Shown: piece after piece, positions 1 to 12,690 of the stretch | How the letters are laid out: every line of letters starts with the position of its first letter | Numbering within the stretch: the stretch's first letter is position 1 | Assembly: GCA_029263335.1 (NCBI GenBank) | Contig: JAJCXS010000299.1 | Location: 1-64,000 of the forward strand | Reading direction: 5' to 3' | Length of the DNA: 64,000 nucleotides | Source of the DNA: Acidobacteriota bacterium | Lineage (GTDB): Bacteria > Acidobacteriota > UBA890 > WLXD01 | Program-made: the position numbers and the translations under genes | Notes under the pieces: generated by a model | What the model saw: only the letters and a program-made list of their open reading frames with translations | What the model was told of the DNA's origin: nothing | Databases searched by the model: none

Positions 1-363
1 GGCGGCGTGGCCGTGCCCGTTGATCAAACCTGGAATCACCATGTCGCGGGGTCCGGCGGCGATCGTCTCGGCGGCGTTCCAGCCTGCGGCGATCTCCTCT
101 CGCGCCCCGATGGCGACGATGGCGCCGTCGAGGATGGCGAGCCCGCCGTCCTCGATCAGGCGGCGCTCCGGGTCCATGGTTACCACCGTGCCGCCCAGGA
201 TCAACAGGTCGGCGGTGGCCCCGGTCGATGCCGGCGCAGTGTTCTTGCCCGGACTGCAGGCGGTGGCGGCGACAGCCGTAGCGGCCACGAGGATGACGAG
301 GCGCACGACCCGCGTCGGTCGGGTTACGAGTATCTGACCTTCCACGCGGTGCTCGCAGTTCAT
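1..363 (-). CDS. Amidohydrolase-family lipoprotein, N-terminal part (cut by window edge)
   Basis: The 121 residues present start with a signal peptide whose hydrophobic core ends in AATAC-S, a weak lipobox, so the protein is probably a lipid-anchored exported enzyme. A Gly/Thr/Ala-poor linker leads into LLILGGTVVTMD, the beta-sandwich start typical of metal-dependent amidohydrolases. The visible part ends in VIPGLINGHGHA, where the HxH pair is the first metal-ligand motif of that superfamily. The ATG overlaps the cdd stop as ATGA, so it is the last visible gene of the nucleoside salvage operon. A deaminase acting on a base or nucleoside is possible from context, but the substrate pocket is outside the window. 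Confidence 0.75.
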   Translation of the reverse strand, partial: MNCEHRVEGQILVTRPTRVVRLVILVAATAVAATACSPGKNTAPASTGATADLLILGGTVVTMDPERRLIEDGGLAILDGAIVAIGAREEIAAGWNAAETIAAGPRDMVIPGLINGHGHAA

Positions 364-845
364 GGGGCTTCTTCCCTTGATGCCGAATCCAGGTCGACCG
401 GACCGAATGCGGCCGGTAGCAGATCTGCCGCCTGCCACACTTCCACCTTGCCATCGAGAGTGGCGAGCAGAACGGTGATGTCGCCGGCGAGATCCCAGAT
501 TACTTGCCGACACGCCCCGCAAGGAGGTGTCGGGCGCCCCTGGTGTCCCGGCCCGGCCACGGCGATCGCCGTGATCTCGCCCGCGCCGTCGGCTACCGCG
601 GAGAACAGCGCGACGCGTTCGGCACAGATCGTCAACGAGTAGGAGGAGTTCTCCACGTTGCAGCCTCGGTGAAGACGAAGGTCGCTATCGAGCGCGGCGG
701 CCCCCACCGCGAAGCCCGAGAATGGAGCGTGCGCCTGGGTGCGTGCCCGGATCGCAGCCTCGACGAGTTTGCGTTGCCCCGGAGTCAGCTCCGCCGCTTC
801 GATCAGTTCCTTCTGTGGTGATCTCGGCGGCCACTCAGCTCGCAT
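360..845 (-). CDS. cdd: Cytidine deaminase
   Basis: Converts cytidine or deoxycytidine to uridine or deoxyuridine in the cytoplasm. The 161-residue protein has the small homotetrameric CDA layout: FSGFAVGAA near the N-terminus, the CAE zinc/proton-shuttle motif (CAERVA) and the second zinc motif PCGACRQ. A Cys in CAE rather than His fits the tetrameric class. The first about 20 residues are longer than in short CDAs, so a slightly later start is possible. It overlaps the end of the PNP gene by 11 bp and shares an ATGA with the next gene, consistent with coupled translation in a salvage operon. Confidence 0.93.
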   Translation of the reverse strand: MRAEWPPRSPQKELIEAAELTPGQRKLVEAAIRARTQAHAPFSGFAVGAAALDSDLRLHRGCNVENSSYSLTICAERVALFSAVADGAGEITAIAVAGPGHQGRPTPPCGACRQVIWDLAGDITVLLATLDGKVEVWQAADLLPAAFGPVDLDSASREEAP

Positions 846-1692
846 CGTTGAGGTTCTCCTCGGCGATCGTCGCGAGCAGATCCTGCAGCAGCCCGACCAC
901 GCTGTCTCGCACCTGAGCTCCGACCTCCATCACTTCCTCGTGGTTCAGTGGCGCCTCCGACAGTCCGGCGGCCATGTTGGTGATGCACGAGATGCCGGCG
1001 ACGCGCATGCCGGCGTGGCCGGCAGCGATGGCCTCCGGCACGGTGGACATGCCGACGGCGTCGGCGCCGAATCCGGATAGCATGCGAATCTCCGCGGGAG
1101 TTTCGAACGACGGGCCGAGCAGCCCCGCGTAGACGCCTTCGTGGAGAGTTAGCCCGCGCCGCGCCGCCGCGGCCAGCGCGAGTTCTCGATAGCGACGGTC
1201 ATAGGGCTCGGTCATGTCGAAGAAACGTTCGCCGAGGTGCTCCAGATTGGCCCCTGTACACGGATTCGATCCCTGCAGATTGAGGTGATCGTTGATCAGC
1301 ATCAGATCGGCCGGGCGGTACGCTTGATTCACGGCGCCTGCCGCGTTCGTCAATACCAGCGACCTGCAGCCCAGCAGCGAAAGCACGCGGGTCGGAAACA
1401 CGACCTGCCAGGGCGCGTAGCCCTCGTACAGATGGACGCGCCCTTGCATTACTGCCGCCGACACCGTGCCGATGCGGCCAACAACGAGCTGGCCTGCATG
1501 GCCCGCTACCGTCGAGGTGGGCCATCCGGGGATCTCCGAGTACGGGATCGTCGTGGGGTCTTCGAGGCTGTCGGCGACGGCGCCCAGACCGGACCCGAGG
1601 ACAACGCCGATGAGCGGCTTCGTATCCATGCGCCTCGCCACTGCCTCGGCGGCGGCGGCGAGGCGGGCGCCATGATCGTCTGGAGGGATCAT
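835..1692 (-). CDS. Purine nucleoside phosphorylase (trimeric, PNP family 2)
   Basis: Phosphorolyses purine nucleosides to free base plus (deoxy)ribose-1-phosphate. The 285 residues carry the family's landmarks in order: phosphate loop GVVLGSGLG, GHAG, MQGRVHLYEGY, LTNAAGA, GPSFETPAEI and DAVGMSTVPEAI, with a substrate-binding Asn in CITNMAAG. Length matches trimeric PNPs such as PunA or mammalian PNP rather than hexameric DeoD. It sits 20 bp after the nucleoside transporter and overlaps cdd, which supports a role in salvage of imported nucleosides. Confidence 0.93.
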   Translation of the reverse strand: MIPPDDHGARLAAAAEAVARRMDTKPLIGVVLGSGLGAVADSLEDPTTIPYSEIPGWPTSTVAGHAGQLVVGRIGTVSAAVMQGRVHLYEGYAPWQVVFPTRVLSLLGCRSLVLTNAAGAVNQAYRPADLMLINDHLNLQGSNPCTGANLEHLGERFFDMTEPYDRRYRELALAAAARRGLTLHEGVYAGLLGPSFETPAEIRMLSGFGADAVGMSTVPEAIAAGHAGMRVAGISCITNMAAGLSEAPLNHEEVMEVGAQVRDSVVGLLQDLLATIAEENLNDAS

Positions 1693-1712
1693 CGAGTTTT
1701 CTTACTGCCTTC

Positions 1713-3092
1713 TTAGAATCCGGACAGGAGCCCGGCCAGGGTGGCGGTGGAATAGGAGGCCATGGTGCCTGCCAGCATGGCCCAGGGACCAATGCGCGCC
1801 AGGTCCGACTTGCGCGACGGTGCGAGGCCGCCGATGCCACCGATCTGAATCGCGATCGAGGCGAAGTTGGCGAAGCCGCACAGCGCGTACGAGGCGATGA
1901 GTTCGGATTTCGGCGACAGAGCGCCGGCGTCGACCATCTCCACCATACGGATGAAGCCGACGATCTCGGTGAGCACCAGCTTGGTGCCGAACAGCTCCCC
2001 AACGCTGGCGGCCTCAGCCCATGGCACCCCCATGGTCCATGCGAGCGGCGCCAGCATGGCTCCCAGAATGCTCTCGAGCCGCATCGGCAGTTCGCCCGGA
2101 CCTCGAATGGCGAAGATCGCCCAAGCGACGGCCACGGTCAGTAGCACGCCGCCGAGCGCTCGTATCGAGGCGGTTCGCGACGGCCGCCACATGAGGAACC
2201 AGGCGATCAGCAGGCCGACCAGTGCCCCGGTCAGTCGCAGCATGCCGCCACCATCGAGAAACGCGCGCCCGGCGAGGCCGAGTCCGCCGTTGATTAGCGA
2301 GATCAACGCCAGGAACGCTATCAGCATGCCGCCGATGTTCAGCGCCAGGGTGACCCCCTGAGAGGCTCCGCGGGCCGCCGCGTCGAGCACGTTGACATCG
2401 TCGGTCTGCACTTCGATCGAAACCACGCCGGCGGTCTTGGACGTCTCGGTCTCGGGGAAGATCAACTTCGCCATGATCAGTGAGGCCGGCGCGGCCATCA
2501 CGCTTGCGGACAGCAGGTACTCAGCTCGCACGCCAATGCCGATGTAGGCCGCGAGCACGGCACCGGAAACGGTCGCGAAGCCGCCGGTCATGAGCGCCAT
2601 CAGTTCCGAGCGGGTCATCGAGGGCACATACGGCGCGATGATGATCGGCGCCTCGGTCTGTCCCATGAACACGTTGGCGGCGGCGGCCAGCGACTCCGAT
2701 CCGGAGACAGCCATCGCCTTATGCATACCGCGGGCCATCACCAGGACCACTCGCTGCATCAGTCCGATGAAATACAGGACCGAGAAGAACGAAGCGATGA
2801 AGATGACGACGGGTAATACCTGGAACGCGAGGATGAATCCCGATTGCTCGGACGCCGCCAGCGGCCCGAAGACGAAATCCGAACCGGCGTCGGCGAACTC
2901 GAGCAGCGCCGTGACGCCGTCGGCCAGCATCGAGAAGAGCGCTTGCCCGGGTGTCGTTTTGATGACGATGATCGCGAAGGCCAGCTGCAGACCGAAACCC
3001 CAGACCAAGGTTCTGAGGTTCACCCGGGCCCGGTCTCGCGAGAGCAGATAGGCGGTGCCGTAGAGAACGACCAGGCCGAGTAGCCCGATCAT
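1713..3092 (-). CDS. nupC: Concentrative nucleoside transporter, NupC/CNT family
   Basis: Inner-membrane cation-coupled nucleoside importer. The 459-residue protein is hydrophobic throughout with many predicted membrane segments. It contains the CNT core elements FIGLMQRVV, AAANVFMGQTEAPI (the GQTEAP substrate/cation loop) and the second helical-hairpin region SYALCGFANFASIAIQIGG. The length is somewhat above E. coli NupC (about 400), with extra residues mid-protein around 290-330. Its ATG overlaps the deoA stop as ATGA, so uptake and cleavage of nucleosides are translationally linked. Confidence 0.92.
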   Translation of the reverse strand: MIGLLGLVVLYGTAYLLSRDRARVNLRTLVWGFGLQLAFAIIVIKTTPGQALFSMLADGVTALLEFADAGSDFVFGPLAASEQSGFILAFQVLPVVIFIASFFSVLYFIGLMQRVVLVMARGMHKAMAVSGSESLAAAANVFMGQTEAPIIIAPYVPSMTRSELMALMTGGFATVSGAVLAAYIGIGVRAEYLLSASVMAAPASLIMAKLIFPETETSKTAGVVSIEVQTDDVNVLDAAARGASQGVTLALNIGGMLIAFLALISLINGGLGLAGRAFLDGGGMLRLTGALVGLLIAWFLMWRPSRTASIRALGGVLLTVAVAWAIFAIRGPGELPMRLESILGAMLAPLAWTMGVPWAEAASVGELFGTKLVLTEIVGFIRMVEMVDAGALSPKSELIASYALCGFANFASIAIQIGGIGGLAPSRKSDLARIGPWAMLAGTMASYSTATLAGLLSGF

Positions 3093-4381
3093 CGAATGTG
3101 CTCATGAATCAAGGGAGGTGCCTCCAGCGGGTCGTCGGAAATGGTCAGCGCAGCATGCACGAGGTTGAGCGCTCGGTCCACGTCGGCACCGGCCCCGTGA
3201 TGCAGGGACAGCCACTCCTCGCCGGTGCGCACCTCATCGCCGAGGCGCTTATCGACGATCAGGCCTGCCGTGGGGTCGATGACGTCGTCGAGTGTGTCGC
3301 GCCCGGCACGCAGTGCGATCGCCGCCAGCCCCAGCGCACGACAGTCGATCGCCGCGATGTATCCGTCGGTAGCCGCGGTGACGCTGGTCCGACTTGCTGC
3401 CCGTGGCAGGCCGCCGCGGTCAACGCGGCCGGCGTCGCCGCCTTGTGCCTCGACCATGGCCAGGAATCGTTCGCGGGCGGAGCCGTCGTCGAGTAGCTGT
3501 TCGAGGCGCGCGCGTCCTTCGCCGGCGAGGCCCGCCAGGCGCAACATCTCGGCGCCAAGCACCAGCACGAGCTCGCGCAAGTCGTCGGGCCCACCGCCTG
3601 ACAGGCATTGCATCGATTCTTCCACCTCGAGCGTATTGCCGATGGCGCAACCGAGCGGCTGGTTCATGTCGGTGATCAATGCCGAGCACGCCACGTGCGA
3701 CTCGCTTGCTACCGCGCGCAGTCGCGTCGCCAGGGCGCGAGCGGCCTCAAGATCGGCGAAGAACGCGCCGGAGCCCACCTTGACATCGAGCACGAGGGCG
3801 CGCGCACCCTCGGCGATCTTCTTGCTCAGTATGCTGGCGGTAATGAGACCGCTGTCGTCCACCGTGCCGGTGGCATCACGCAGCGCGTACAGCAGGCGGT
3901 CAGCAGGAACGAGAGCCTCGGTCTGTGCGCCCATGGCGAAGCCCAGTTTCTCCACGACGGCGCGGAAACGTGCTGCGGACAGCGTCGTGCGCAGTCCGGG
4001 AATCGACTCGAGTTTGTCCAGCGTCCCGCCGGTGTGTCCCAGTCCGCGTCCCGAGATCATCGGAATCGTGGCTCCGGCAGCCGCGACGAGGGGCGCGAGA
4101 ATCAGACTCACCTTGTCACCGACCCCCCCCGTGCTGTGCTTGTCGACAGCCAGTCCGGTGGGCGGCGTCCAGGTGTAGCTATCGCCCGAGTCCACCATCG
4201 CGCGCGTGAGCAGCGCGGCTTCGGATGCGTCGAGACCTCGCCAGCGGATCGCCATCAGCAGCGCCGCCATCTGGTAGTCGGGAACGTCGCCGCGAATGTA
4301 TGCGCCCACGGCCCACCGGATCTCTTCGGAGGAGAGAGCCCGGCCGATCTTCTTCGCCTCGATGAGGTCCAGGATTCGCAT
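3089..4381 (-). CDS. deoA: Thymidine (pyrimidine-nucleoside) phosphorylase
   Basis: Phosphorolyses thymidine or uridine to base and sugar-1-phosphate. I chose the ATG at 4381 because the protein then begins MRILDLIEAKK, the usual N-terminus, and is 430 residues, the family length. The open frame continues upstream only through Arg/Pro-rich sequence. Visible motifs are KHSTGGVGDK (phosphate loop), SGRGLGHTGGTLDKLESIPG (signature) and LDVKVGSGAF. First gene of the minus-strand salvage operon. An eight-C run on the plus strand at 4123-4130 lies within the phosphate-loop codons and could be a slippage site. Confidence 0.94.
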   Translation of the reverse strand: MRILDLIEAKKIGRALSSEEIRWAVGAYIRGDVPDYQMAALLMAIRWRGLDASEAALLTRAMVDSGDSYTWTPPTGLAVDKHSTGGVGDKVSLILAPLVAAAGATIPMISGRGLGHTGGTLDKLESIPGLRTTLSAARFRAVVEKLGFAMGAQTEALVPADRLLYALRDATGTVDDSGLITASILSKKIAEGARALVLDVKVGSGAFFADLEAARALATRLRAVASESHVACSALITDMNQPLGCAIGNTLEVEESMQCLSGGGPDDLRELVLVLGAEMLRLAGLAGEGRARLEQLLDDGSARERFLAMVEAQGGDAGRVDRGGLPRAASRTSVTAATDGYIAAIDCRALGLAAIALRAGRDTLDDVIDPTAGLIVDKRLGDEVRTGEEWLSLHHGAGADVDRALNLVHAALTISDDPLEAPPLIHEHIR

Positions 4382-4561
4382 CTCGTCAGTAGCCTCGTGC
4401 GGAGGGTGCGGGTTCGCGCGGGGGGCTCGTGCAGTGGCACTCGGACGGCCGGCAAGTCTAGCAGGCCAGGGGTGATACTTGACCTGGGCCGGCGCGCCAA
4501 GTCGGGAGGCGCGGCGGTTATGTGCGGCCCGGCCGGGGAAAAAGGTCGGTACCAACCGCGT

Positions 4562-4591
4562 TTGAGCATGTCCGCGGGGCTGTGCTAGCCT
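4562..4591 (+). promoter_or_regulatory. Candidate promoter for the VWA operon
   Basis: In the 281-bp divergent gap between deoA and the VWA gene, TTGAGC (4562-4567) is followed after 18 bp by TAGCCT (4586-4591), about 70 bp before the GTG at 4663. The match to sigma-70 consensus is moderate. No other structure stands out in 4382-4662. Confidence 0.3.
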
Positions 4592-4662
4592 AGGCGCAGG
4601 CTCCTCCGCAATCCCCACTAGAGCATCGTGGCGGCGTTGTGCCGCTACTCCTCGGGCGCACT

Positions 4663-5847
4663 GTGAAGACTCGATTCCTGCTGGCCCTCGTTGTGGTGTT
4701 TGCTGCGGCGAGCCGACTCGTCGCGGCTCCCCAAGACCTCGAAGTGCGCATTCTCGCGCCCGAGAACGACACCTACGTTACCGGTCAGGTAATGATCAGG
4801 GTCGAAGTTGTGCCGGTGGGCGCGACCGCCATTGATCGGCTGACGTTCAAGGTGGACGGCGCGGTTCTGGGCGTGCTCGAGGCAGCCCCCTGGGAGATGC
4901 CCTGGGATGCGGGCGAGGAATTCGATCAGCACGTCGTTGAGGTCGAGGTCGTGGACGCGGTGGGGCGTCAGGCCAACGACATCATCCTTACGCGCGATCT
5001 CGAAACCGCCGTGTTCCGGGCCGAAGTCAACGCGGTGCTTGTCTATGCCACCGCCGTGGATGGCCGAGGCCGTTACGTGGCGGGGCTGGAGCGCGACGAC
5101 TTCGAGATCTACGAGGACGGCAAGAAGCAGACGATCACCAATTTCTCGTCCGAGCCCCGGCCGATGGTTGTCGGCATGTTGATCGATACGTCGGGCAGCA
5201 TGGAGGGCGCGAAGTTCCAGCGCGCTCGCCAGGGAGCCCTGGCGTTTATCGATCAGATCGGAACCGGTGACGAGGCGTTCGTCATGTCCTTCGATTCGTT
5301 CCCGATGCTGCTACAAGATCTCACCAGCAACCACGCCCTCCTGCGCGAGTCGGTCAGTGAGCTCGTGCTCGGCGGCGCGACGGCGATGAATCTGGCGGTC
5401 GTCGAGGGGGCGGACATCCTTGCCGAGCGGCCCGAGAGACGCGCGCTGATCGTGCTCTCGGACGGCTATGACAGCACCGCTACGGTGACCGTCGATCAGG
5501 CGGTTGACTATGCACGACGGTTGGACACGCGGGTGTATACCATCGGGATCTTCGGCGCCGAGGGAGGCGACCTCCGCGGCCGGCGATCATTCGACAGTTT
5601 CAATCCCGGCGAAGACGCTCTGCGGAGTTTCGCCGACGGTTCGGGCGGCCGTTCCATCATCCTCGATTCCCTTGGAGAGCTTCTTGAGGCCTATGAAGAC
5701 ATCGCCAACGAACTCAAGAGTCAGTACGCGCTTGCGTACCGACCTGCAGAACCGGCCGAGCCGGGTGAGTGGCGCGAGATTGAGATTCGCGCCAAAGGTG
5801 CCAAAGAAGTTCGCACCAAGCCGGGTTACTACGGTGGCCAATATTAG
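4663..5847 (+). CDS. Secreted VWA-domain protein (VWFA-related, acidobacterial type)
   Basis: The GTG at 4663 gives a clean signal peptide (KTRFLLALVVVFAAASRLVAA); an in-frame GTG at 4639 is the alternative. An N-terminal Ig-like segment (about 25-120) precedes AVDGRGRYVAGLERDDFEIY and then a von Willebrand A domain with an intact MIDAS start, DTSGS, at residues 175-179. It ends LKSQYALAYRP, the usual end of this family, about 394 residues in all. The role is unknown; MIDAS domains bind protein ligands through a metal. It starts a four-gene operon with overlapping ends, the next gene beginning 14 bp inside it. Confidence 0.85.
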   Translation: MKTRFLLALVVVFAAASRLVAAPQDLEVRILAPENDTYVTGQVMIRVEVVPVGATAIDRLTFKVDGAVLGVLEAAPWEMPWDAGEEFDQHVVEVEVVDAVGRQANDIILTRDLETAVFRAEVNAVLVYATAVDGRGRYVAGLERDDFEIYEDGKKQTITNFSSEPRPMVVGMLIDTSGSMEGAKFQRARQGALAFIDQIGTGDEAFVMSFDSFPMLLQDLTSNHALLRESVSELVLGGATAMNLAVVEGADILAERPERRALIVLSDGYDSTATVTVDQAVDYARRLDTRVYTIGIFGAEGGDLRGRRSFDSFNPGEDALRSFADGSGGRSIILDSLGELLEAYEDIANELKSQYALAYRPAEPAEPGEWREIEIRAKGAKEVRTKPGYYGGQY

Positions 5848-6391
5848 CCAGCTCACGGGTCGCCCGGCGTCTCTCGGGCGCTTGGCCGTCTTGGTCCTGA
5901 CCGGAGTGCTGGCTTTGGCTCCGATCGCCGAGGCGACCGTGTTGCGCGGATTGACGGTTGCTCAACTGCGATCACGGGCTGAAGTCATCGCCGAAGGCAA
6001 AGTCGTCCAGGTGCGCACGATGCGCGCGAATGGACGCATCGAGACGGTCGCAGTTGTGCGCGTGCGCCAGCTTCACAAGGGTGAGGCCGGCCGTCGCCTA
6101 CAGGTGCGGGCTTTCGGCGGGGAGATCGGTGGCCGCCGCATGATGGTGCAGGGCGCTGCGAGCTTTACCAAGGGCGATCGGGTGCTCCTGTTCCTCTATG
6201 ACGATGGAGATTCGTGGCGGTCGGTCGGCATGTTCCAAGGCGTGTGGCACCTCGACGCGGAGAGCGTTGTGGCGCGATCGAGCGATTCGGGCGGAGCCTC
6301 TCTGCTCCGGCCCGAGACCGGTAGCGCGGCCGTGGATCAGCGAGAGCACTCCGTCGCTAGGCTCCTCGGTGGCCATGGAGGGGACCGATGA
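5834..6391 (+). CDS. Secreted protein of unknown function
   Basis: A 185-residue protein starting at GTG 5834, inside the end of the VWA gene, with a signal peptide ending near APIAEA. The mature part opens with LRGLTVAQLRSRAEVIAEGKV, then a beta-rich middle (VRVRQLHKGEAGRRLQVRAFGG) and KGDRVLLFLYDDGDSWRSVGMFQG, and a Ser/Gly-rich tail. It resembles the small exported proteins that often precede matrixin-like genes, but I do not recognise a named domain. The open frame extends far upstream over the VWA gene in another frame; that part is not credible as coding. Its stop overlaps the next ATG as ATGA. Confidence 0.7.
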   Translation: MANISQLTGRPASLGRLAVLVLTGVLALAPIAEATVLRGLTVAQLRSRAEVIAEGKVVQVRTMRANGRIETVAVVRVRQLHKGEAGRRLQVRAFGGEIGGRRMMVQGAASFTKGDRVLLFLYDDGDSWRSVGMFQGVWHLDAESVVARSSDSGGASLLRPETGSAAVDQREHSVARLLGGHGGDR

Positions 6392-7389
6392 AGACTCTAG
6401 GCCGCGGTATCTCGGTTGGCATGGGGATCTTGCTGATCGTCGTGGCGGCTTCGCCAGCGACCGGGTACGTGCCCAACACGGTCGACTTCGTGAGCGGCCA
6501 GGCGGTAACCACGCACTGGTCGGACGCCGACTTCCCGATCCCCGTGAGGGTCACACCGGGACTGACCACTGACGTCAGCGGCGGCAGTGACCGGAGCGCT
6601 TTCGAAGCGGCGCTGGCGACATGGTCTGGCGTCGCCGGTTCGAGCGCGGGCGTGTTTCTCGAGCGCGAGCAGGCGGTCGAGGCCGGCGTGGTCGATGGCA
6701 TCAACGCCGTCGAATTCTCCAACGACCCATCCCTCGACGGCGCCCAGTTCGTGGCGATCACTTTCGCTCTGACCAATAGCGACGGCCGCATTATCGAATC
6801 GGACATGCTGGTGAACGATCGCGGGGTTGGCTTCACGACGAGCGCCGGCTCCGACGTGGGTCTCGACTTCGAGACCGCGATGCTCAAGGAAATCGGCAAG
6901 TTCCTCGGTCTCGCCAACTCTCCGGTGGGCGGGTTTTCTGCCGATCAGACGATCGATGAGACATCGGCGGTGATGTACGCGTTGGCACGCGGAATTGGCG
7001 AAACGGCGCGTGCTTTGCGCATCGATGACATTGCCGGAATGCGCGCCATGTATCCGGCGCCGGGCGGCTCGTTCGCCTCGATCAGCGGAACGATAACGAG
7101 TGCCGGAAGCCCGGTCTTTGGTGCCCAGGTTGTGGTGCACGACCCGATTGCCGACGTGCTCGTGGGCGCGTTGACTCTGCCGGATGGCACTTACCGTATC
7201 GACGGTCTTCCGGCCGGCCGATACCTGATGGAGGTGCTGCCTTTTACTGCGCCGGTGGTCCCGGCGGCGATCGGTGGTATCTACGCGCGGGACGACGTGA
7301 ATACGAACTTCCAGCGGCAGTTCTTTGAAGTTACGGTACGGCTCGGTGCGGGCGAGAACGCCTCCGGTCTGAACTTGGAGGTGAGCTAA
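6388..7389 (+). CDS. Matrixin-like protein with inactivated zinc site plus carboxypeptidase-regulatory-like domain
   Basis: A 333-residue exported protein with a signal peptide ending about ATGYV. Residues about 25-225 follow the matrixin pattern: VTTHWSDADFPIPVRV, AFEAALATWSGV, ETAMLKEIGKFLGLANSPVGG and the Met-turn SAVMYALA. The catalytic helix should read HExxHxxGxxH. Here positions 167, 171 and 177 are Lys, Lys and Asn while E168 and G174 remain, so all three zinc ligands are gone. Residues about 230-333 (ISGTITSAGSPVFGAQVVVHD, DGTYRIDGLPAGRYLMEV) form a carboxypeptidase-regulatory-like beta domain. It is probably a binding protein rather than a protease. ATGA overlap upstream, TAATG overlap downstream. 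Confidence 0.82.
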   Translation: MKTLGRGISVGMGILLIVVAASPATGYVPNTVDFVSGQAVTTHWSDADFPIPVRVTPGLTTDVSGGSDRSAFEAALATWSGVAGSSAGVFLEREQAVEAGVVDGINAVEFSNDPSLDGAQFVAITFALTNSDGRIIESDMLVNDRGVGFTTSAGSDVGLDFETAMLKEIGKFLGLANSPVGGFSADQTIDETSAVMYALARGIGETARALRIDDIAGMRAMYPAPGGSFASISGTITSAGSPVFGAQVVVHDPIADVLVGALTLPDGTYRIDGLPAGRYLMEVLPFTAPVVPAAIGGIYARDDVNTNFQRQFFEVTVRLGAGENASGLNLEVS

Positions 7390-8114
7390 TGCGTGCAACC
7401 CGAGTGATGATCGCGCTGTTGCTCGCGCTTGCCCTCCCGGGCCTTGCCTGGGCTCAGGAGGCTGATTCGACACCAGCCCAAGCTGAGGAGGCGGGAGGGG
7501 AGACGTCTCGCTACGACAACCCCGATGCCGGCTGGGAGAGTCGACGGTTCCATGTAGGGGGCTTCTACGGCCGCCTCTCCGGAGGAACTGCCCTGGGGAC
7601 GATCGAGAACGTTTTCTTCCGTACCCAGGTCAACATGGATACGGACAACGCCTTCGGGTTTCGTGTCGGCTGGTCGGCCACTGCCCGCTTCGATGTCGAG
7701 CTGGAGTACGGCAGTTCCTCGCCGGGGCTGCTGGCGACGCTGACGGATCTGCGCGGCCAGGGCAAGACCGAGGTGCCGTTCGCGGATCTCGACATGACGT
7801 GGGTGACCGCGTCGGTGAACTACTCGATGATCGAGCGTACCCGCCGGATCGTGCCCTACCTGACGGTCGGCCTCGGCATCGTGTCGGTGAGTTCCGATGC
7901 CGAGGGCATTGTCGATGCGACCCAGCCGGGGCTGGTGTTTGGCGGTGGACTGCGGATAAGGCTCGTCGACCAGATCGCACTGCGGGCCGATGCGCGAGGC
8001 TTGCGCTCGGGCTTCGGTACGAAGCAGGAGGACGACGCCTTGCCGGGAGTGTTCATCGGCGAGTTCAACGCGTCCAACTTCCTCTGGACCCTCGGCCTGG
8101 ACATTCGCTTCTGA
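7389..8114 (+). CDS. Outer-membrane beta-barrel protein
   Basis: A 241-residue protein with a signal peptide ending ALPGLAWAQ, an acidic Glu/Ala-rich linker, then alternating amphipathic strands (RRFHVGGFYGRLSGG, AFGFRVGWSATARFDVELEYG, RIVPYLTVGLGIVSV, LVFGGGLRIRLVDQIALRADARG). It ends LGLDIRF, with the C-terminal aromatic needed for outer-membrane assembly. The pattern fits an eight-strand OmpA/OmpW-like barrel. It is the last of the four-gene operon, its ATG overlapping the previous stop, so it may anchor or export the secreted partners. Confidence 0.85.
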   Translation: MRATRVMIALLLALALPGLAWAQEADSTPAQAEEAGGETSRYDNPDAGWESRRFHVGGFYGRLSGGTALGTIENVFFRTQVNMDTDNAFGFRVGWSATARFDVELEYGSSSPGLLATLTDLRGQGKTEVPFADLDMTWVTASVNYSMIERTRRIVPYLTVGLGIVSVSSDAEGIVDATQPGLVFGGGLRIRLVDQIALRADARGLRSGFGTKQEDDALPGVFIGEFNASNFLWTLGLDIRF

Positions 8115-8132: not shown

Positions 8133-8642
8133 CTACTCCTGGATCGGCCCGACTCCGAGCAGGTCCGTGAGTCGCTCCACGATCGTCCGTTCGATCAATC
8201 CTCGGGAGCGCAGGACGCGGTAGTCGCCATCGAACCCCTCGATGCGGGTGGTCAGGTGTACGCGAGTGTTGCCGATTGCCGTTGGTCGAACGCTGGCAGT
8301 GACGATGTAGCGCCCGCGGGAAAAGGAGTTCTGGTTGCCCAGATAGGCGACCTCGTCGAGACGCTCGGCGGGGTCGCCGTTGTGGGTCAGAGGGATGTGG
8401 GCGCTCTCGAACAGGCAGGCGTCACCCTCGACGGTGTCCTTTCCCAGTGCGGTGCCGAGCTGGCGGATGGTGTGACGAACCTGAGCGCAGGTCGTGGCCA
8501 GCTCAGACGGAAAGACGACGACGGGGTTGAGCGGCTGGACCTCAGGCTCGCGCCAGGTCACCTGGCAGGCGAGCTGGGTTGCCAGGAGCGCCACGAGCAG
8601 CGCTGCAGCCGCACGTGAGCCGGGGTAACGGTACGGGTCCAT
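8133..8642 (-). CDS. Lipoprotein, paralogue of the next gene upstream
   Basis: 169 residues. The signal peptide ends in a lipobox-like LATQLAC, and the mature protein starts CQVTWREP. The body has two further cysteines (TTCAQV and DACLFE) and ends with a beta-rich region (NTRVHLTTRIEGFDGDYRVLRSRG to LIERTIVERLTDLLG). The same plan is found in the adjacent 8670-9182 gene, so the pair arose by tandem duplication. The function is not recognised. Probably exposed in the periplasm or attached to a membrane. Confidence 0.78.
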   Translation of the reverse strand: MDPYRYPGSRAAAALLVALLATQLACQVTWREPEVQPLNPVVVFPSELATTCAQVRHTIRQLGTALGKDTVEGDACLFESAHIPLTHNGDPAERLDEVAYLGNQNSFSRGRYIVTASVRPTAIGNTRVHLTTRIEGFDGDYRVLRSRGLIERTIVERLTDLLGVGPIQE

Positions 8643-8669: not shown

Positions 8670-9182
8670 CTAGCGCGCCTCTGCGGGGGGCGCACCAACG
8701 CGGGTGCCGATGGCCTCAAAGACATTGCGCTCGATCAGACCGTTTGAGCGCAGCACCTGGTACCCGAACTCTTCGTTCACGTAGCCCTCGATGCGGGTCG
8801 ACACCCGAACGCGGGTGCCACCGTTGCGCACATCGCGAGTCGTGACGGTCATGGTGTATCGGCCGCCAATGAACCCACCCGCACCGACCATGGCCACTCG
8901 CCTCAGGTGGTCCATCGGATCGTCGCCCTCGTCAGAGAAGACCCGAAACTCGGTATCGAGAAGGCAGGCGTTGTCCTCGCGCTGCACATCTTCCAGTTCC
9001 AAGCCCAGGTCCTGCACCACCTGCTCGGCAGCATCACAAGTGGCCCCGAACTCCGCGTCGTAGAACCGATTCGAGTTGAGCGGCTCGAGCACGGGTTCAC
9101 GCCATGTGATCTGACAGGCGCCCATGCTCAGCAGCAGCAGCGGGAGGAGGAGGCCACGCTGCGCGCCGCGACGAATTCGCAT
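8670..9182 (-). CDS. Lipoprotein, paralogue of the following gene
   Basis: 170 residues from the ATG at 9182; the open frame reaches 9215, but the later start gives a compact signal peptide ending LLLLSMGAC, a good lipobox. The mature start is CQITWREP, nearly identical to the neighbour, and GATCDAAEQ, NACLLDTEF, RVRVSTRIEGYVNEE and LRSNGLIERNVFEAIG align along the whole length. Two conserved cysteines in the mature part may form a disulphide. No known domain recognised. Confidence 0.78.
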   Translation of the reverse strand: MRIRRGAQRGLLLPLLLLSMGACQITWREPVLEPLNSNRFYDAEFGATCDAAEQVVQDLGLELEDVQREDNACLLDTEFRVFSDEGDDPMDHLRRVAMVGAGGFIGGRYTMTVTTRDVRNGGTRVRVSTRIEGYVNEEFGYQVLRSNGLIERNVFEAIGTRVGAPPAEAR

Positions 9183-9229
9183 CAGTGATGTTTCCGGTCC
9201 AGGGGTGTGGGACAACGTGAGGTCAGGGA

Positions 9230-9540: not shown

Positions 9541-11457
9541 TCAGTTGAGGACGCGTCGGTCGCCTGCCCGCCGGGTCACGAGGGCGGCGTCCAGGTGTTC
9601 GAGCAGAGGAATGGAGTGTTTGCGGCTCAGCCCCGTCCAGCCCTTGAAATCGCCGATGGTGAATTCGGCACCAGTACCGACGCGGGTGCCGAGGTCGATG
9701 ATGAGTTTGTCGATGGCGCGTTGGGCGACCACGTATTGGTCCGTAACACGCGTCAGATGACCTTCACGCAGTGCGAGATGAAACAGTTCGCGGGCCAGCT
9801 CCGCATCGTCGCAGGCGCCGAGGATCTGGTCGACGGGGCTCGGGGCCAGACCACCACGAGTGAACGCGTCCATGAGCTGGTCGCGCATCGCCAACACGTC
9901 ACCGGTCACGGCCACCTGGTGATCGGCGAGAGCAAGATGAGCTCCGGCGGTGGTGACCTGGTCACTACCGACCAGGTCGTCGATGACGGCAGTCAGCACG
10001 GCGTCCGGCAATCCTGCGGCGACCGCGTTGCGCAGGTTTTCCCGATCCATTCCCGGTCGTAGTGGATGCTCTTGGTGATAGCCGGCAAGGGTAGTGAGGG
10101 CCGCGTCCTGCACCCGGTCAAGAACGCGCCTCGCGACAAGTTGACGGGGCGTGCCGGCGAGGACAGCGATGTCACCGTGGGTCAGCACCGCAGCCATGCT
10201 GGCGGCGAAAGCCGCCGAACTTTGCCCCGAGCGCCGAGCGAGGGTCGGCTCGTCAAGCCCTCGGTCGCCCGCTGCGAGGATCCAGTGGTGCAGCCGTTCG
10301 CTGCTGTCGACACCATCCAGGCGCCGGACAGACTCGACGGCGACGCCGCCGCGTCGGCGCTTACCCGGGTGCGGATCAAGAACCTCCGCCCCGGCGATGG
10401 TGACCAGCGGAGAGTACCGTCGGAGCACGATGCGGTCGCCAGGGATCGCTGGGTAGCGAGCTTCGAGGCGGAGCTGGCAGTAGGCGGATCCTCCCGGCGG
10501 CACCTCGTCGCCCGCCAGCAGCGCCCCCCGGGCCAGCAGTTCGGCGGCGCCATGGTGAAAGCGCACGCGTTGCAGGTGAGTTACCGCGAAGCCGGGCAGC
10601 GTTTCGAGCCGAACGTCGAGCACGTGGCTTGCTTGCAGCTGTCCGGGGCGCGTCAGCATCATGCCGCGGCTGACCTCGCCGGTTTGCACGCCGTGAAGGT
10701 TAAGCGCCACACGCTGTCCGGCGCGGGCGCAGGAAGCCTCTGCGCCGTGAACCTGAATGCCGCGGACCGTGACCTGCGACTCTCCTGGCAACATATCGAG
10801 CCGGTCGCCGGTCTCGATCTGCCCGGCCAGCAGGGTGCCGGTGACCACGGTGCCGAACCCGTGAATCGTGAAGACACGGTCGATCGGCAACCTCGTCGCA
10901 TCGTCGCTGGCGCGTTCCGGTTGTGCGAGAAGTATCTGCGCGAGCGCTTCGCGCAGTTCCTCCAAGCCGGCGCCGGTGAGCGCGCTGGTGCGGACAATCG
11001 GGGCTTCCTGTAGTGCCGTGCCCTCGAGCAGTTCGCTAACTTCGAGCTCGGCCAGCTCGGCGAGCTCAGAATCGACCAGGTCGCACTTGGTGAGCGCGAC
11101 GACACCGCCGCGAACTCCCAACAACTCGCAGATCGCCAGGTGTTCTCGCGTCTGCGGCATGACCGACTCGTCGGCCGCCACCACCAGGATTACAGCATCG
11201 ATGCCACCGATGCCGGCCAGCATGTTCTTCACAAAGCGTTCGTGACCGGGGACGTCCACAAAGCCGACATGAAGGCCGGCAAACTGACTGTCTGCGAAGC
11301 CCAGGTCAATGGTGATGCCTCGATCCTTCTCTTCCTGAAGGCGGTCGGGATCGGTGCCAGTCAGTGCCTGGACGAGCGCACTCTTGCCGTGGTCGATATG
11401 TCCTGCCGTGCCGACGATTCGGTAACGGGCGCTGGCGTCGCTGGTGGGGTCGGGCAC
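9541..11457 (-). CDS. selB: Selenocysteine-specific elongation factor SelB
   Basis: A translation GTPase that brings Sec-tRNA to UGA codons followed by a SECIS hairpin. G motifs are complete: [27 protein letters not shown] and SALTG. They are followed by elongation-factor beta-barrels ([15 protein letters not shown]) and about 250 C-terminal residues of winged-helix repeats that read SECIS. I chose GTG 11457, which starts just before the G1 loop and gives 638 residues, near E. coli SelB (614). The frame continues upstream only into the neighbouring promoter and gene. No selA, selC or selD is seen in this window. Confidence 0.93.
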
Positions 11458-11470
11458 GAATTTGAGTGGC

Positions 11471-11499
11471 TTGTGGGGGTATCGAGGCAGGTCTAATCT
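11471..11499 (+). promoter_or_regulatory. Promoter of the thiolase gene, predicted leaderless
   Basis: TTGTGG (11471-11476), a 17-bp spacer, then TAATCT (11494-11499). The ATG at 11506 lies only 6 nt after the -10 hexamer, so transcription should start at or next to the A of ATG. No Shine-Dalgarno is present, which agrees with a leaderless mRNA. Confidence 0.55.
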
Positions 11500-11505
11500 G
11501 TGCTC

Positions 11506-12690
11506 ATGCGTGAAGCCGTAATCGTATCTGCAGTCCGCACTCCGAGTGGCAAGCTCATGGGTGCTTTGAGTTCGTTCACCGCGCCTCAGTTGGGCGCTCT
11601 CGTCGTTCGTGAGGCCGTTCAGCGAGCTTCGCTCGCTCCAGAGGAGATCGACGAGGTCATTATGGGCCAGGTGATTCAGGCCGGCACCGGTCAGAATCCC
11701 GCTCGCCAAGCAGCGCTCGGGGCCGGCTTGCCGCCTTCGGTCGCCGCGCTCACCCTCAACAAGGTATGCGGATCGTCACTCAAGGCGGTTGTACTCGCGG
11801 CGCAGGCGATCAAGCTCGGTGACGCAGATCGTGTCGTCGCGGGCGGCCAGGAGAGCATGAGCAACGGCCCCTATTTGCTCCCCAAGGCGCGTGCCGGCTA
11901 TCGGCTGGGCCACGGCAAGATGCTCGACGCCACGGTGCATGACGGACTCTGGGACGCTTACAACGACTACCACATGGGATGTACGGGCGAGGTGGTCGCC
12001 GAGCGTTTTGCTGTCAGCCGCGAGGAACAGGATGCGTGGAGCCTGCGGTCGCATGAGCGAGCTGCCGCCTGTGCTGCCGCCGGTGAGTTCGACGCGGAAC
12101 TGCTGCCGGTATCGGTCCCTCAGCGGCGAGGAGATCCGATTCTGGTGAGTCGCGACGAGTCGATCCGCAGCGACACCACCCTGCAGGCGCTGAGCAAGCT
12201 CCGCCCGGTCTTCGACGCGACCGGATCCGTGACCGCCGGTAACGCTCCGGGCGTTAACGATGGCGCTTCGGCAGTCTGCGTGATGTCCGATGAGGAGGCA
12301 CGGTCACGGGAGATCGAACCTCTGGGCCGCGTCGTCGCCTACGCCACCAGCGGCCTCGAACCCGAGTTGGTGATGATGGCGCCGGTGCAGGCTGTCGAGA
12401 TGGTTCTGCAAAAGACCGGATGGGACCGTGACGAGGTCGACCTGTTCGAGTTGAACGAGGCCTTTGCGGTGCAGTCGGTAGCGGTTGTCCGCGAGCTGCG
12501 CATCGACACCGAGCGTGTCAACGTGCGCGGCGGGGCGGTTGCCCTTGGGCATCCCATCGGCGCCTCGGGAACGCGCATCCTCACAACGCTGCTGCATGCC
12601 CTCCGCGACCGTGGTGCGGCTCGCGGTATTGCGGCCATGTGCCTTGGCGGCGGCAATGCGGTTGCCATGGCGGTGGAGCGTTCTAGCTAG
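11506..12690 (+). CDS. Acetyl-CoA acetyltransferase (thiolase)
   Basis: Condenses or cleaves acyl-CoA and acetyl-CoA. The 394 residues show the nucleophile Cys in NKVCGSSLKAVV, NEAFAVQ, the catalytic His in GGAVALGHPIGASGTR and the second Cys in MCLGGGNAVAMAVE. The start ATG 11506 (MREAVIVSAVRTP) is the standard thiolase N-terminus. A hydroxyacyl-CoA dehydrogenase follows 48 bp downstream, so the pair can interconvert acetyl-CoA and 3-hydroxybutyryl-CoA or complete beta-oxidation. It cannot be told from sequence alone whether the role is biosynthetic or degradative. Confidence 0.94.
   Translation: MREAVIVSAVRTPSGKLMGALSSFTAPQLGALVVREAVQRASLAPEEIDEVIMGQVIQAGTGQNPARQAALGAGLPPSVAALTLNKVCGSSLKAVVLAAQAIKLGDADRVVAGGQESMSNGPYLLPKARAGYRLGHGKMLDATVHDGLWDAYNDYHMGCTGEVVAERFAVSREEQDAWSLRSHERAAACAAAGEFDAELLPVSVPQRRGDPILVSRDESIRSDTTLQALSKLRPVFDATGSVTAGNAPGVNDGASAVCVMSDEEARSREIEPLGRVVAYATSGLEPELVMMAPVQAVEMVLQKTGWDRDEVDLFELNEAFAVQSVAVVRELRIDTERVNVRGGAVALGHPIGASGTRILTTLLHALRDRGAARGIAAMCLGGGNAVAMAVERSS

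Follow-up and report, generated by a model that had tools for sequence, protein, structure and literature searches.

A matrixin-like protein lacking its zinc ligands and a co-encoded protein of predicted TIMP/NTR-like fold in an operon of Acidobacteriota

The operon and its genomic surroundings

The locus lies in a 64,000-nucleotide stretch of DNA (the window) from an Acidobacteriota bacterium, and comprises four genes encoding a VWA protein, an exported protein with a predicted TIMP/NTR-like OB fold, a matrixin-like protein and an outer-membrane β-barrel protein (Table 1). Overlaps between the genes (ATGA at 6388–6391 and TAATG at 7387–7391) bear out the coupled operon of these four genes that a preliminary description of the window had proposed. 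A scan of the operon for promoters found nothing.

Divergent from the operon, the minus-strand genes at 360–4618 have the look of a nucleoside salvage cluster, with cytidine deaminase-, purine nucleoside phosphorylase-, NupC- and thymidine phosphorylase-like products. Convergent with it are two tandem, paralogous small lipoprotein-like genes (8133–8642 and 8670–9215, minus strand), which are approximately 37% identical, partly syntenic across the order and without a Pfam family. A gene for a SelB-like elongation factor (9541–11709, minus strand), syntenic across the order, also adjoins the operon; a search for tRNA genes in the window gave none.

Table 1 Coordinates of the operon features and of related fusion genes (window positions unless a locus is named)
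Feature	Position	Strand	Remarks
VWA protein	4639..5847	+	TIGR03436 acidobacterial VWA family, with Big_7 Ig domain; DTSGS, GAT and LSDG MIDAS-like motifs
Exported protein, predicted TIMP/NTR-like OB fold	5834..6391	+	Start uncertain, GTG 5834 or later
Zinc-less protein of predicted matrixin fold (pseudoprotease candidate)	6388..7389	+	333 aa with signal peptide
Former zinc-binding helix KEIGKFLGLAN, replacing HExxHxxGxxH	6886..6918	+	K167 (AAG, 6886–6888), E168 (6889–6891), K171 (AAG, 6898–6900), G174 (6907–6909), N177 (AAC, 6916–6918)
Met-turn methionine M196	6973..6975	+	Invariant in zinc-less and zinc-intact relatives
C-terminal CarboxypepD_reg/CnaB-like Ig domain of the matrixin	7078..7236	+	Pfam PF13620, E 2.6e-8; Foldseek CnaB matches
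Outer-membrane β-barrel protein (OMP_b-brl)	7389..8114	+	Orthologues in order
TIMP/NTR-like–metzincin fusion, same genus	L123 1384-2691	+	Zinc-intact
TIMP/NTR-like–metzincin fusions, same genus	L124 682-1995, L125 751-2121, L126 1-2136	-	Zinc-intact

Relatives were sought in 60 and later in 297 genomes of the same phylum; the order is represented by nine genomes, mostly incomplete. The gene order VWA, TIMP-like, matrixin, barrel is kept in the genus, the family and the sister family: the full operon is present in three genomes (G001, G002 and G008) and, as far as the contig extends, in a fourth (G003), and in G006 the VWA and TIMP-like genes are followed by the contig end. The operon, whose conservation had been left to be checked in relatives, is thus kept across the order, and where contigs are long enough it is flanked there by the convergent lipoprotein genes and SelB. 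Orthologues of the VWA gene occupy the same place in G001, G002, G008 and G006, and also in G004 and G005, where the VWA gene adjoins the barrel gene and both the TIMP-like gene and this matrixin are missing. Wider searches of the latter two genomes revealed no other copy of either gene, which indicates that the two are gained or lost as a unit. Outside the order, two genomes of one other family (G046 and G252) encode the exported protein, a zinc-intact matrixin and then a distant barrel; a VWA gene of this type was not found in the stretches read, and its occurrence together with the TIMP-like/matrixin pair was seen in this order only.

Loss of the zinc ligands in the matrixin-like protein

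The product of 6388–7389, the translation of which includes MLKEIGKFLGLANS, carries its matrixin-like domain between a signal peptide and a CarboxypepD_reg/CnaB-like domain at the C terminus. The HExxHxxGxxH zinc site is absent, with K167, K171 and N177 at the positions of the three histidines, while the catalytic glutamate E168, G174 and the Met-turn, now assigned to M196, are present; the replacements and the retained matrixin frame were read in the same way in the preliminary description. As it had also noted, two of the three replacements require two base substitutions each (both histidine to lysine), the change from histidine to asparagine requiring one. The Pfam model Peptidase_M10 matches residues 67–222 with a score of 15.5 bits, below the cut-off of 24, which zinc-intact homologues exceed (48 bits for L028 and 51 bits for L029). 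The AlphaFold2 model (mean pLDDT of 73) has the predicted fold of a matrix metalloproteinase (MMP) catalytic domain, with Foldseek matches to the catalytic domains of MMP-13 and MMP-3 (TM-score normalised by target of 0.56–0.69, up to 0.69 with MMP-13) as well as to CnaB-like domains; a sequence search of the PDB yielded nothing useful. The protein therefore resembles the matrixins (PF00413), of which karilysin is a bacterial example, in its predicted fold, E168, the glycine, the Met-turn, the EAD and DG hallmarks and the signal peptide, but differs from them in the loss of all three zinc histidines and in its score below the Pfam cut-off.

The loss extends to the orthologues. The helix reads KEFGKFLGLAN and REFGKFLGLAS in two relatives of the same genus (G001 and G002), RELGRMLGLTS in one of the same family (G003) and RELGHLLGLDS in one of the sister family (G008), so that, with the window protein counted, all three histidines are missing from the orthologues of four genomes and two from that of a fifth. 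None of the close homologues in the same operon has an intact HExxHxxGxxH, a check that the preliminary description had proposed; the nearest, G008, retains the second histidine only. Across the five orthologues, position 167 is K or R, position 171 is K, R or H, and position 177 is N or S; the basic residue at position 167 (5/5) is encoded by four different codons (AAG, AGG, CGA and CGT). Residues W79, D103, G104, D139, E168, G170, G174, M196 and Y222 are invariant in the zinc-less and zinc-intact groups alike. In a maximum-likelihood tree of 29 sequences, the five proteins with altered motifs group in a single clade (support 100/99) and the remaining 24 of 24 are zinc-intact. The homologues outside the order whose motif was read are also zinc-intact, with at most two unsettled exceptions: the apparent further variant QEIGHFSGLGH of G236 lies in a gene broken into two frames and was left out of the count, and in G095 the pattern used gave no motif match. 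A scan of genome contigs for relatives returned one close relative only.

The reading frames are open in all five genomes, and pairwise dN/dS values of the matrixin (0.12–0.33, approximate because dS is near or above 1) are similar to those of the barrel and TIMP-like genes. Since independently assembled relatives, including a genome of nine contigs, carry the same substitutions, these represent neither chance nor a sequencing slip, and the orthologues together with dN/dS rule out sequencing error and recent decay. The settled divergence suggested earlier is accordingly upheld by the related genomes, the tree and dN/dS. Judged by its zinc-intact relatives, the clade-wide loss and continued purifying selection, the window protein can be classified as a putative pseudoenzyme derived from matrixins. 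In the simplest history, the loss of the first and third histidines would predate the divergence of the two families, and the second histidine would have been lost in the window's family; the clade is small, and its five sequences count as one evolutionary event.

The TIMP/NTR-like protein and its pairing with matrixins

The sequence pattern of the exported protein had suggested a possible TIMP/NTR fold before its structure was predicted. The predicted mature protein begins with TVLRG at about 5936, and its AlphaFold2 model, based on 32 homologues, has a pLDDT of 88.5. The best Foldseek matches in the PDB belong mostly to the TIMP/NTR superfamily (agrin NtA, complement C3 NTR, TIMP-2 and TIMP-1, and also PCOLCE NTR and meteorin NTR), and the title of the agrin NtA entry itself states a relation to N-TIMP-1. 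The predicted structure thus has an NTR-type OB fold, at modest scores (best E-value of 9.5e-4, TM-score of about 0.4–0.5), and its first 55 mature residues are spaced similarly to those of TIMPs. Profile–profile comparison (hhalign) with three TIMP N-domains gave a probability of 0.6% and falls short of significance, 2 of 200 column shuffles scoring at least as high, and a longer, unrelated matrixin profile outscored the TIMPs; the alignment nevertheless placed residue 12 on residue 12, the expected register. Of the sequences of TIMP-1, TIMP-2 and TIMP-3 used for these profiles, the first two are identical to PDB entries. A PDB sequence search with the profile of the family gave no match, and Pfam and NCBIfam matches are weak (NtA, E-value of 0.006, in 1 of 32 members). 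The exported protein is therefore best described as TIMP-like in predicted fold, homology to TIMP not being proved by sequence profiles.

The family, which includes loci such as L034, L028, L029 and L035, has no Pfam model. Some members show a weak match to the Leptospira LIC_20196 exoprotein family (E-value of 4e-4 at best), and the family may therefore extend beyond the Acidobacteriota.

According to their usual description, TIMPs are regulators of matrix metalloproteinases in animals; their N-terminal segment enters and plugs the active-site cleft. The mature exported protein differs from them in containing no cysteines, so neither the zinc chelation by Cys1 nor the disulfides of TIMPs can apply. 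At the predicted mature N-terminus, 22 of 26 homologues from outside the order have a proline at position 4 or 5, against none of the six inside it; this difference, which counts as a single evolutionary event, is a hint at binding between the two proteins and no more than suggestive.

The TIMP/NTR-like family is present in 124 of 297 acidobacterial genomes. Among its 80 best matches in the phylum, 56 have a matrixin match directly downstream on the same strand, and five of these pairs possibly form one open frame. Four additional members of the family, all from the window's genus, are joined at the N-terminal side to zinc-intact metzincin domains, with the motifs HEAGHTLGIGH, HEIGHGHGQGH, HEFGHAVGIGH and HELLHAMGLGH; the fusion with HEIGHGHGQGH is encoded by the window's own genome (G000, contig C5), and G001 and G002 also have fusions. 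That the two parts occur fused argues for their physical association. The ancestral module is probably a TIMP-like/matrixin pair.

In Listeria, the metzincin Mtz, with an HExxHxxGxxH/D site, cuts the TIMP-like lipoprotein Tim (PMC8235301). The adjacency of metzincin and TIMP-like genes is common to both systems, but in the window operon the order is reversed, with the TIMP-like gene first, the protease is zinc-less, and VWA and barrel genes are included. In the literature searched, the sole bacterial metzincin/TIMP-like pair is that of Listeria and its relatives among the Firmicutes; a pair spread through a whole bacterial phylum, fused forms included, would offer a natural setting for studying how such pairs originate.

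A possible binding role and its alternatives

The protein encoded at 6388–7389 very probably neither binds a catalytic zinc nor cuts, and cleavage of the TIMP-like protein, as for Tim, is unlikely because the zinc site is absent. It probably works as a binding partner instead. The retained fold, the selection, the gene coupling and the finding that this gene and the TIMP-like gene are present or missing together argue for a binding role, with the TIMP-like protein as the first partner. This agrees with the earlier suggestion of binding in place of cutting and adds a candidate partner, the upstream protein; binding itself is put forward here as a model. In that model, an ancestral two-gene module, in which an exported TIMP/NTR-like OB-fold protein was translated together with a secreted matrixin, would have joined the VWA and barrel genes in a four-gene operon in this order. 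Within the operon the matrixin would have lost its zinc ligands and kept its fold, becoming a rigid scaffold without catalytic function, on which the former active-site cleft serves as a docking surface, with the TIMP-like protein as its first, constitutive ligand. The C-terminal Ig domain, the VWA protein and the barrel would place the complex at the cell envelope, a location suggested by signal peptides, protein families and synteny, and the basic residue at position 167 (in one family also at 171) may replace the positive charge of zinc beside E168. To this reading as a whole, in which one partner of a TIMP-like/matrixin pair has turned from protease to pseudoprotease in an envelope complex, we assign a probability of roughly 0.6. 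A broader version is more tentative, with somewhat less than an even chance: the pair would be regulatory throughout the Acidobacteriota and would here have survived the loss of zinc, its inhibitor–enzyme interface becoming a structural joint of the envelope complex with the VWA protein and the barrel.

The TIMP/NTR-like domain might alternatively assist matrixins in folding or export, as a prodomain supplied in trans, and still chaperone the zinc-less protein, the function of which would lie elsewhere, in adhesion or carbohydrate binding through the Ig domain. The N-terminal position of the fused domain is that of a prodomain and the TIMP-like protein is translated before the matrixin with overlapping codons; however, the fused architecture alone would be the same for a prodomain or an inhibitor, and the fold resembles the TIMP group, the animal members of which bind the active-site cleft of mature proteases, which leaves this explanation unlikely, if worth keeping in mind. 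Less probable still is that the zinc-less protein serves as decoy for, or regulator of, an active NTR–metzincin paralogue in the same cell, for example by soaking up its inhibitor domain or substrate. Inactive zincins have been proposed as decoys (PMC3650047) and zinc-intact fusions do occur in G000, G001 and G002, yet these paralogues are only distantly related, map to other loci and already have a TIMP-like domain fused to them, and no second copy was seen in the incomplete genomes G003 and G008.

Persisting activity through other chemistry or another metal would account for the invariance of E168 despite the loss of the ligands. A glutamate beside lysine or arginine is equally explained by a salt bridge, lysine or arginine at both helix positions is unlikely to coordinate a metal in the geometry of metzincins, and no other set of ligands was noticed in their place; we regard such activity as very improbable. 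The stepwise loss of histidines, two of three in G008 and all three in the window's family, is what a merely decaying gene could also display, an explanation that is hardly credible, being already contradicted by the open frames, the low dN/dS, and the conservation of fold residues and operon coupling.

No zinc-less clade of matrixins was found in the literature searched. A parallel is provided by the inactive zincins of the CLCA family and the mammalian ADAM pseudoproteases; in inactive zincins, lysine and arginine have been reported to be in excess at the HExxH histidine positions (PMC3650047). There too the histidines are replaced non-randomly, often by arginine or lysine, and the protein is retained, but those zincin families are other than matrixins. 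Surveys that require an intact HExxHxxGxxH drop such proteins before analysis (for example, PMC12587646). The zinc-less clade described here represents a natural experiment that separates binding from catalysis.
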